From NCBI GenBank assembly GCA_018715595.1, contig DVLI01000006.1, forward strand, positions 1 to 64,000: a stretch of DNA of 64,000 bases, written 5' to 3'. The stretch comes from Candidatus Caccoplasma merdavium (GTDB lineage: Bacteria; Bacteroidota; Bacteroidia; Bacteroidales; UBA11471). The position numbers and the translations under genes are program-made. Within the stretch, counting starts at the first letter, position 1. Each line of letters starts with the position of its first letter. Positions 53,498 to 57,852 of this stretch are shown here, one piece after another. The notes under the pieces were generated by a model. The model saw nothing but the letters and a program-made list of their open reading frames with translations. It was not told the DNA's origin and did no database searches.

Positions 53498-54034
53498 TTA
53501 AGAATCCTTCATTCTTTTCTCGAAGCGGAAAAACTCTTTTTGAAATTCGGGTTCATCGTCGCTCGTCCCGCTCGCTTTGTGATGGGCATTGAAAAACTCG
53601 ACGATGTGAAACCCGCACTTGTTGACGTAAAAATGGATATTCCGTTTCTCGAAATAGGGGGTTACCAATTCCCACACCCGGGTCTCGGGATAGCGGCGTT
53701 CTATTTCCCGCCACACGATTTCGCCCAACCCGCGTCCATGGAACGCGGGCAGGATATAGAACAATTCCATGCTGTTGTGCCGGGTTTCGGGGTTGATGTT
53801 CAGGACGACGCCTCCGATTTTCTGCCCGTGATAGAAAACGGCATACACCACCGACCCGCGTTTGCGAAGCGATTTCTCCACCTCGTCGAGGGGAACTGCG
53901 TTGCGACCGGCGGCGTTGCCGAAATGTTCGACAACGGCAATGGAGAAAACGGCGGCGGTTTCTTTGGCAAAATCGCCGAAAGCACGTTCTTCGACAAGAA
54001 CAAAATCAATATCCTTCTCCATGAGGTTCTGCAA
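53498..54034 (-). CDS. GNAT family N-acetyltransferase
   Basis: 178 residues (or 174 from the ATG at 54022). GGVVLNINPE, then LFYILPAFHGRGLGEIVWREIE carry GNAT motif A with the acetyl-CoA loop HGRGLG, and FYVNKCGFHIVEFF is motif B. Substrate unknown. It begins two bases after the cytidine deaminase stop, and the two form an operon. Confidence 0.85.
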   Translation of the reverse strand: MQNLMEKDIDFVLVEERAFGDFAKETAAVFSIAVVEHFGNAAGRNAVPLDEVEKSLRKRGSVVYAVFYHGQKIGGVVLNINPETRHNSMELFYILPAFHGRGLGEIVWREIERRYPETRVWELVTPYFEKRNIHFYVNKCGFHIVEFFNAHHKASGTSDDEPEFQKEFFRFEKRMKDS

Positions 54035-55581: not shown

Positions 55582-56109
55582 TCAATCGTCGGTAAGCGAG
55601 AAATCCTTATTGGCAAAAAGTGCCGCCAATCCGGTAATCTGTTTCAGGCGCAACAGCTCATCTTTGTCCATGCCTATGTTGCGCTCTATCCAGCGGTCGG
55701 ACATGCCGGCCTTGGTCAGTTCCGAGACGATTTCGCTCATCAACTCCACGTTGTGCGTGCCGCGGGCCCGGTTGTGGCGTATCGTCGAGGCCATGCGGTT
55801 GGAAAGGTCTTTTTCGATGACCACCACGGGCAAGAGGCCGTGTTCGCGTTCGAAGATGCGACGGGAGGTCTTCATCACCAGGTACCGGTGATAGCCGTCG
55901 ACCAGTTCATAGACATCTTTGTCGGCGACATAGTAACACACGCAAGGCATCGTGTAGCCGTCTTCCCATATCGAGAGTTCGAGCAATTTCATCTCGGGAG
56001 GAGCCACCACGTTGGGGTTATAGGCATTGGCCACCACCTTGTCGACCGGGACGGGTATGACTTTGTAGACGGGACTTCTGTATCGCTCTTCATTCTTTAT
56101 TTTCGCCAT
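55582..56109 (-). CDS. ParB/sulfiredoxin-fold protein (IbrB-like)
   Basis: 175 residues. YELVDGYHRYLVMK (DGYHR at 71-75) is the nucleotide-binding motif of the ParB/Srx superfamily, seen also in IbrB and ParB-like nucleases. A helical C-terminal part (about 125-170, ERNIGMDKDELLRLKQITGL) resembles an HTH-like region. Substrate and DNA target are unknown. Its start lies 20 bp inside the upstream PP-loop gene, so the two are translationally coupled. Confidence 0.78.
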   Translation of the reverse strand: MAKIKNEERYRSPVYKVIPVPVDKVVANAYNPNVVAPPEMKLLELSIWEDGYTMPCVCYYVADKDVYELVDGYHRYLVMKTSRRIFEREHGLLPVVVIEKDLSNRMASTIRHNRARGTHNVELMSEIVSELTKAGMSDRWIERNIGMDKDELLRLKQITGLAALFANKDFSLTDD

Positions 56110-57391
56110 AGTATTTTTTATATTTTTCCATAATTTGGTCGCGTCGTTCTTTCTCGGCCTTCGTGGGGGCGAAGCCCATGTATTTGCACGAATGGTCGTT
56201 TTTGAGAATGCAGATGCACATGCGTTTGAACGAGGGCAACTCCCTGAACTCCTCGATGTCGATGTCGTCGAGATATGCCATGCGCACCGGTTTTTTGTCG
56301 GTTTTGTAATTGGTCGATTCCCCGACCTCTATCTCGACCCCCATCTTCCGCAACTTGTCGATGGTCTCATCGGCCAGGCAACCGCCCTTGTCGCGCCAGA
56401 AGGCAATGCTCACGCTCAACTTGTCGAGATAGCCCTGGCGTATCTCTTCGGGCAGGGTGCTGAGCAGGAAGTGCATGTATTTTTCCCATGTCATGTTGGG
56501 CGGGCATTTCACCGTGTACCACCCCATGGCCGAGGTGTTGCCGTAGATGCCGGCAAAGTTTACGCCGTTGACACGACTTATCATGCGCCCCCACATCTGC
56601 GGGTCGATGGCCCGGTAGAGTTGCAGGCTGGGTATCGCCGCCGAGATGAAGGGGCTGGCCACCCGTTGTTTTTCGATGGAGACGCCGGCCTGGTAATAGA
56701 GGTCGTAGAGGTGGTTGTAGGACCACCCGAAACGGCCGTTGGCCACCCACACGTCGGTCGTGCGCCAGTCATATATGGGGTAGGCATTGTAGACATCGTC
56801 GGCAATCTTGCGTGTCCACTTGAAACGCTCGTAGCAGCAATAGTTCTTGTCGCTGTGTATCGAGCGCCAGCGGTTGAAACTCTCCTGCGTGCGAATGCCC
56901 ACCAGGCAGCAGGTGCGCCCCGCCCGCTTGTAACGGTGCAGCCACTCGGCAAATTTTATCTGGAAATCATAGTCCCACAAATCGTCGGAAAAGAAATCGA
57001 AATCCTCCTTCCGGTAGGCCGAGCGCGGCATTTCCCTCACCCAAAGCTCCTTCATCTCGTCGTCCCACGGGCGCCAGTAGCTTTGGTGCATCGAGGTGCA
57101 GGTCTGTACCTTGAACGGCACGCACACGCGGTAGATGTCGAGAATGTCGGTGTTTTGCGCGAGTACCTCCTCGACATATTTCAGCGTTTCGGAGTATTGC
57201 ACCTCGTAGTCCATGTGGAAAACGCCGATGCGGCGATTCAACCGGTGTTTGCGCACATAGTCGATGCAGAGGTTGAGCAATACCCCGCTGTCTTTCCCGC
57301 CCGAAAAGGAGACATAGACATTGTCGAAATCGGTGAAGATTTTTTCTATGCGCGAGAGGGCCGCTTCATACACGTTACGACGTTTTTCCAT
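56090..57391 (-). CDS. PAPS reductase-family PP-loop protein (DUF3440, IbrA-like)
   Basis: 433 residues. The PP-loop ATP-pyrophosphatase motif SGGKDS is at 30-35. FHMDYEVQYSET, the RTQES element and YPIYDWRTTDVW follow the PAPS reductase/IbrA pattern. The DUF3440 C-terminal part contains Cys-rich segments (MCICILKNDHSCKYMGFAP). It should activate a substrate by adenylylation, perhaps for sulfur transfer. IbrA with its ParB-like partner IbrB is known as a regulatory pair in E. coli phage-borne loci; no phage genes surround this one. Confidence 0.85.
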   Translation of the reverse strand: MEKRRNVYEAALSRIEKIFTDFDNVYVSFSGGKDSGVLLNLCIDYVRKHRLNRRIGVFHMDYEVQYSETLKYVEEVLAQNTDILDIYRVCVPFKVQTCTSMHQSYWRPWDDEMKELWVREMPRSAYRKEDFDFFSDDLWDYDFQIKFAEWLHRYKRAGRTCCLVGIRTQESFNRWRSIHSDKNYCCYERFKWTRKIADDVYNAYPIYDWRTTDVWVANGRFGWSYNHLYDLYYQAGVSIEKQRVASPFISAAIPSLQLYRAIDPQMWGRMISRVNGVNFAGIYGNTSAMGWYTVKCPPNMTWEKYMHFLLSTLPEEIRQGYLDKLSVSIAFWRDKGGCLADETIDKLRKMGVEIEVGESTNYKTDKKPVRMAYLDDIDIEEFRELPSFKRMCICILKNDHSCKYMGFAPTKAEKERRDQIMEKYKKYYGENKE

Positions 57392-57797
57392 CGCCAGCCT
57401 GGTATTTCATTTTTACATAGTGTTTCCATTCCCGTTCAGCCGCAAAACCTTTTTCAAGAAAGGCTTCGGCATCACGCGTATGGACAACGGCGACCAGCGG
57501 GCCCATCGGGACATACATCTCGATGGATTTCTCGATAAGTGCCGGCAAAACAGCCTCCTCGGCCTCGGGCGAGAGATAGTAGTTGTTGATGTAGGCATAC
57601 CCCTCGCGGCGTTCGACGGGGAAAAAGCCCGAAATCTTGTTTTCGTCCTCGTCGTCGAGAGCAAGCAGCCACTCGTGGCGCTGCGAGGTTTTGTAGGGAT
57701 AATTGTCGTTCTGTCGCAAGACGGCTGCGTTCATGACAAGGGGAGCGACCAACTTGTACAAGCGGGGTGATGTGCCTCCCAGAATTTCGATTTTCAT
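57375..57797 (-). CDS. GNAT-like acetyltransferase of the IbrAB-like operon
   Basis: 140 residues from the ATG at 57797; a GTG at 57803 is possible. RQNDNYPYKTSQRHEWLLALDD, then NNYYLSPEAEEAVLPALIEKSIE and VVHTRDAEAFLEKGF follow a GNAT-like order of strands and a final helix (parts: NNYYLSPEAEE, AFLEKGF). The acetyl-CoA loop is degenerate. It is the first gene of a three-gene unit, overlapping the PP-loop gene by 17 bp, and is driven by a minus-strand TATATTTG at 57845-57852. Confidence 0.65.
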   Translation of the reverse strand: MKIEILGGTSPRLYKLVAPLVMNAAVLRQNDNYPYKTSQRHEWLLALDDEDENKISGFFPVERREGYAYINNYYLSPEAEEAVLPALIEKSIEMYVPMGPLVAVVHTRDAEAFLEKGFAAEREWKHYVKMKYQAGDGKTS

Positions 57798-57844: not shown

Positions 57845-57852
57845 CAAATATA
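57845..57852 (-). promoter_or_regulatory. -7 promoter element of the GNAT/PP-loop/ParB operon
   Basis: TATATTTG on the minus strand, 47 bp before the ATG at 57797. Confidence 0.65.

Follow-up and report, generated by a model that had tools for sequence, protein, structure and literature searches.

A chromosomal IbrA/IbrB (YbdN/YbdM) operon with a GNAT-fold third gene in gut Bacteroidales

IbrA and IbrB form a known but unexplained protein family, and no account of what the two proteins do was found in the open-access PMC literature. The original IbrAB pair was introduced, according to the title of the report, as a genetic island activating prophage genes (Sandt, 2002, cited in PMC7649339), and in E. 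coli Eib expression was shown to increase under IbrB (PMC7649339). In E. coli K-12, ybdNM is repressed by the adjacent LysR-type regulator CitR (PMC9068703). In Listeria, lmo1309/lmo1310 are given as core genes and also appear in a list of candidate toxin-antitoxin pairs, where the DUF3440 gene was placed through guilt by association only (PMC7020466). An initial annotation of the DNA described here had taken IbrA/IbrB to be known only as phage-borne regulators; this is contradicted by the chromosomal ybdN/ybdM of E. coli K-12, by lmo1310-lmo1309 of Listeria and by the original IbrAB itself, a genetic island. Besides E. coli K-12, Listeria and gut Bacteroidales, many phages and hundreds of plasmid records contain homologues.

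The window, i.e., the whole stretch of 64,000 nucleotides of Candidatus Caccoplasma merdavium that was analyzed, carries the two genes together with a third one and an upstream promoter box:

57845..57852 (plus strand numbering), minus strand: -7 promoter box TATATTTG, Bacteroidales consensus TAnnTTTG
57375..57797, minus strand: GNAT-fold protein of 140 amino acids counted from the ATG, degenerate, without an acyl-CoA pyrophosphate-binding loop; an IbrA partner specific to Bacteroidota
56090..57391, minus strand: IbrA, PP-loop/PAPS-reductase-fold ATPase with DUF3440, 433 amino acids, SGGKDS intact
55582..56109, minus strand: IbrB, ParB/Srx-like protein of 175 amino acids with the DGYHR motif

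The reading favored here, to which we assign a probability of roughly 40%, is that this chromosomal locus belongs to the IbrA/IbrB (YbdN/YbdM) family, is inherited vertically and has a third subunit specific to the lineage, and that its products act as a DNA-associated, ATP-using enzyme complex.

The structural description given in the initial annotation holds. A re-check of the open reading frames reproduced the overlaps between the genes of the GNAT-fold protein and IbrA (57375-57391, 17 bp) and between those of IbrA and IbrB (56090-56109, 20 bp) exactly and both SGGKDS and DGYHR are present, bearing out tight coupling as one operon. As the start of the first gene the ATG at 57797 is favored over an upstream GTG because the start region MKIE is common to the genus. 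The operon has its own promoter as claimed, the Bacteroidales-type box TATATTTG being kept 5' of the operon in all seven genus genomes despite diverging flanks. A profile scan identified glucosaminidase, cytidine deaminase and dnaX as neighbors, and the IbrB gene is adjoined by the IbrA and the glucosaminidase genes. The reported absence of phage also stands, as no phage genes were found among these neighbors and the site is core to the genus; moreover, no sign of restriction partners was seen beside the operon. A second, ordinary GNAT (Acetyltransf_1, 1.4e-10) is encoded nearby at 53498-54034 on the minus strand and was undetected in the other six genus loci.

The trio is present in 7/7 genus genomes examined, i.e., the window and six relatives, with the window's neighbors, and is therefore core and inherited: each of the six relatives has the glucosaminidase and deaminase genes beside it, and five of them also have dnaX, the remaining stretch being short. 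Purifying selection acts on the three genes, with median dN/dS values across the genus of 0.107 (GNAT), 0.054 (IbrA) and 0.040 (IbrB), which are indicative values because synonymous sites are saturated in many of the pairs. The arrangement is thus not due to chance. The genus-wide presence, the same flanks and the low dN/dS together show a maintained chromosomal operon and not mobile cargo within the genus, and the idea that the window's copy stems from a phage or prophage was rejected, as this is a core locus of the genus. The glucosaminidase-deaminase neighborhood was seen again in Bacteroides ndongoniae. The trio is also carried by Phocaeicola vulgatus ATCC 8482 (L069). Three "Bacteriophage sp." records, which contain either all three genes or the first two of them (MT839645, MT835983 and MT838936), resembled phage copies at first; at least MT835983 (L020), with efflux, permease and other chromosomal-type genes, looks like bacterial chromosome and is probably a chromosomal scaffold. 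Human faeces are given as the source of the "Bacteriophage sp." records L019, L020 and L021. In one Bacteroidales genome (G298:C4:111982-113244) IbrA lies in three frames with internal TGA codons, from which it follows that the system is dispensable there and can be lost.

The product of the middle gene matches both PF11922 (E 2.7e-91, 304.7 bits, cut-off 25) and PAPS_reduct (E 4.1e-14, 53.4 bits, cut-off 22.5), in agreement with its earlier assignment as a DUF3440 PAPS-reductase-family ATPase. Its PP-loop SGGKDS (residues 30-35) is intact with the IbrB gene adjacent, and in 109 IbrA sequences the loop S30-S35 as well as R167, E170, S171 and R174 are invariant. In a fold comparison spanning residues 1-263, the nearest neighbors were FAD synthase (Z 16.5), APS/PAPS reductases (15.6 downward) and CysD (15.2), followed further off by TilS; these are ATP-pyrophosphate enzymes and not specifically sulfur enzymes. 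The only near-invariant cysteines are C90 and C402 (107/109), which keep cysteine chemistry conceivable, and no conserved Fe-S or PAPS-reductase cysteine set was found among the 109 sequences. The motif ECGLH is the C-terminal catalytic cysteine motif of PAPS/APS reductases and is absent from the IbrA translation. The score for the DndC family (TIGR03183) was 23.1 bits vs. a cut-off of 290.4 and the neighbors are not dnd genes. A search for known anti-phage systems (PADLOC, 2023 library) returned only weak BrxP/DndC matches.

The product of the last gene matches phrog_2159 (E 9.5e-73) and no Pfam family over cut-off. DGYHR occupies residues 71-75, and E39, D71, G72, H74 and R75 are invariant in 81/81 IbrB sequences. 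The DGxHR signature is matched by DGVHRYT of SbnI, whereas Noc/ParB align GERR at this position; the protein thus has DGYHR and not GERR, and no ParA adjoins it, so that it does not qualify as a ParB partition protein. Since the C-terminal half matched no family, DNA binding by IbrB is an inference. Domain, phrog_2159 and motif evidence taken together support the earlier identification of the last two genes as IbrA/IbrB.

For the first gene product no match was found in Pfam, NCBIfam, PHROGs or PADLOC. An AlphaFold model, for which three phage-collection rows were left out of the alignment, has a pLDDT of 94.8 and a complete GNAT strand-helix order, and its structural matches are ElaA, GCN5 and YjcF; model topology and PDB matches thereby confirm the GNAT-like identity proposed before. 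A PDB sequence search with the protein alone returned nothing, and a family profile returned weak GNAT matches. The gene at the same position in Bacteroides finegoldii is annotated as "hypothetical protein." The acyl-CoA pyrophosphate loop [QR]xxGx[GA] after strand 4 is absent in 59 of 61 family members including the window protein, a related form (RQxGVF) occurring only in two viral ones (L149, L155), and the family keeps an NNYY-type strand-4 motif in its place. Because this loop is missing, the protein is expected to lack the usual acyl-CoA binding; its most likely role is that of a binding or specificity subunit for IbrA. A role as a toxin was considered and dropped, as there is no CoA loop and no antitoxin-type neighbor was identified.

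Within the order the GNAT gene co-occurs with IbrA. In 344 Bacteroidales genomes all 25 strong GNAT matches abut IbrA, showing that the protein is a real third member within Bacteroidales, and two weaker matches (E about 1e-4) come without an IbrA match. IbrA was detected at E below 1e-30 in 29 of these genomes and 25 of the 29 also have GNAT; among the other four, an SNF2-type gene takes the place upstream of IbrA in G023 and G102, and the forms in G314 and G323 are short and belong to a distant branch. Among the closest 80 of 328 related genome loci, a sample that thus favors Bacteroidota, 50 contain GNAT (45 as GNAT-IbrA-IbrB, three with SNF2 in front, two as GNAT-IbrA), 20 are SNF2-IbrA-IbrB, nine contain the pair alone and one is incomplete. 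The expectation of a constant third member therefore holds for Bacteroidales (25/29 IbrA genomes) and fails outside Bacteroidota, where either GNAT is missing or its place is taken by an SNF2 ATPase or a cupin resembling ectoine synthase.

IbrA-IbrB look like a reusable core with swappable partners, since in related bacteria and in viruses other proteins accompany the pair. The SNF2-type ATPase (PF00176), the partner in many phages and Firmicutes, directly precedes IbrA-IbrB in 20/80 cellular and 21/80 viral loci and occurs with further partners beside IbrA in three more cellular and six more viral loci. GNAT was found in 6/80 viral loci, mostly alongside the SNF2 gene. A few loci have both, namely L054, L076, L079 and L134, and also L122, L126, L149 and L155. 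The few viral GNAT relatives were found only as neighbors of viral IbrA genes, a direct scan of viral contigs giving pattern matches of which none was confirmed. A gene of the ectoine synthase family PF06339 stands beside IbrA/IbrB in 43/80 viral loci (E-values of the genes scanned, about 1e-36 to 1e-45) and is fused to IbrB in 18; it never co-occurs with GNAT in the 160 loci. All iron ligands and most catalytic residues of EctC are kept in 43/43 of these cupins and the Trp at position 21 in 0/43; they are probably a distinct enzyme with another substrate. Such cupins in IbrB operons or fusions were recorded in L148, L160, L177, L166 and 39 more viral loci. On an IbrA tree (FastTree, some long branches) the partner label changes once for EctC, 10 times for SNF2 and 12 times for GNAT. 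In L118 (5341-5994) a segment like the DUF3440 C-terminal tail is fused to a GNAT domain, and together with the EctC-IbrB fusions this supports physical association. Stand-alone proteins resembling the DUF3440 tail occur in L141, L156, L160 and L161. Furthermore, a conserved viral protein of ~120-160 amino acids with a WExYxNGM-like motif lies in or beside the IbrA cassette in L144, L156, L160, L161, L141 and L116, with no Pfam match in L160, L144 and L161.

From these features a mechanism can be proposed for the DNA-associated enzyme complex. The IbrA PP-loop would bind ATP and release pyrophosphate, activating or adenylating a substrate in the way FAD synthase, CysD and TilS do. IbrB, with the Glu and DGxHR of the SerK/SbnI kinases, may provide the partner nucleotide chemistry and would probably anchor the complex on DNA, and the GNAT-fold protein would fill the IbrA slot that phages give to the ectoine-synthase-like cupin. 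The output would probably be a DNA-associated modification or regulation altering the expression of certain genes. A role in DNA or gene expression is suggested by the SNF2-type ATPases, the replication-gene surroundings of the phage cassettes and eib activation in E. coli; as the window's members come without an SNF2 gene, any such role must do without it here. The EctC-like partner and the SerK/SbnI-like motif point to small-molecule or adduct chemistry, and the cupin fits small-molecule chemistry as well as work on DNA.

This opens an alternative that is unlikely, in which a free amino acid or nucleotide is phosphorylated by IbrB and adenylated by IbrA, GNAT or the EctC-like protein shapes the product and this product, a metabolite or signal, affects expression. 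The DGxHR motif common to the free-serine kinases SerK/SbnI, the iron ligands and most catalytic residues kept by the viral cupins and the likeness of IbrA to FAD synthase and ATP sulfurylase argue for it. However, the SNF2 partner and the phage replication-module context suggest nucleic acid, the cupins lack the Trp-21 required by true EctC, and the GNAT-fold protein has no CoA loop. A broader proposal, which we consider doubtful, is that IbrA-IbrB might be the core of an undescribed modular nucleic-acid/nucleotide modification machinery of phages and gut Bacteroidales, in which swappable partners set target and adduct; if true, a function would thereby be found for many "orphan" ectoine-synthase-like proteins.

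A rather improbable reading is hypermodification of nucleic acid, with IbrA activating a base or the backbone, the partner installing or cyclizing an adduct and IbrB and SNF2 steering to DNA. It would account for the combination of PP-loop enzyme, SNF2 ATPase and tailoring-type enzyme, for the EctC-type viral cassettes sitting amid primase, helicase and recombination genes, and for the more distant fold match to TilS, which attaches lysine to tRNA. However, no hydroxymethylase or base-kinase set stood out among 105 neighbors scanned, which included a single thymidylate synthase, and the core occurs in cellular genomes with no restriction partner apparent beside the window's operon. Improbable as well is a transcription regulator without enzymatic output, in which DNA or RNA polymerase is bound by IbrA/IbrB with ATP as a mere switch: the E. 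coli phenotype is eib gene activation (PMC7649339) and ybdNM is under CitR (PMC9068703), but invariance extends far past the ATP loop to residues of the substrate site and of catalysis, and enzyme-like (EctC-like) partners are recruited.

The modification proposed in the initial annotation, by sulfur (as phosphorothioate or as tRNA thiolation) or by acyl transfer, is highly improbable. The PAPS-reductase fold, the weak DndC/BrxP matches and C90/C402 would agree with it; against this, the DndC score is far below cut-off, no cysteine cluster beyond C90/C402 is conserved and the best fold match is FAD synthase, leaving sulfur chemistry unsupported, and the missing CoA loop makes acyl modification unlikely. 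An anti-phage defense or toxin-antitoxin cassette, for which homologues in phages and plasmids and the listing of lmo1309/lmo1310, with the DUF3440 gene by guilt by association only (PMC7020466), might be cited, is highly improbable given weak PADLOC matches only, a chromosomal site fixed across the genus under strong purifying selection and the absence of any known toxin or antitoxin family.

No description of the GNAT-containing core operon, of the CoA-loop loss or of the EctC-like/SNF2 swapping was found in the open-access PMC literature. With a core that has interchangeable partners, one being an enzyme-like cupin found fused to IbrB, what had been a vague "regulator" becomes an enzyme complex that can be tested. 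Moreover, the IbrB-linked cupins offer a possible context for orphan ectoine-synthase-like proteins, the function of which was called unclear in a 2019 study (PMC6344544).

Compared with known systems, the operon shares with DndC/DndB phosphorothioation a PAPS-reductase-fold ATPase and a ParB-superfamily partner, whereas IbrA is far below the DndC cut-off and dnd genes are not adjacent. The SNF2-IbrA-IbrB cassettes of Streptococcus phage D4276, Listeria, Xenorhabdus and gut Alphaproteobacteria MAGs likewise are tight operons with a gene just upstream of IbrA, but this gene encodes a PF00176 SNF2-type ATPase and not GNAT. The viral IbrA-EctC-like-IbrB cassettes also join the pair to a small third protein, which however is a cupin without Trp-21 and is never accompanied by GNAT. 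In E. coli K-12, ybdN-ybdM have the gene order and the overlapping genes of the window's pair, with 31% and 50% identity, but no GNAT or SNF2 gene lies beside them and they adjoin citR. Finally, IbrA/IbrB of E. coli ECOR-9 give the family of the window's two larger genes its name; there they are a genetic island activating prophage eib genes, whereas in the window they form a core operon that includes one gene more.
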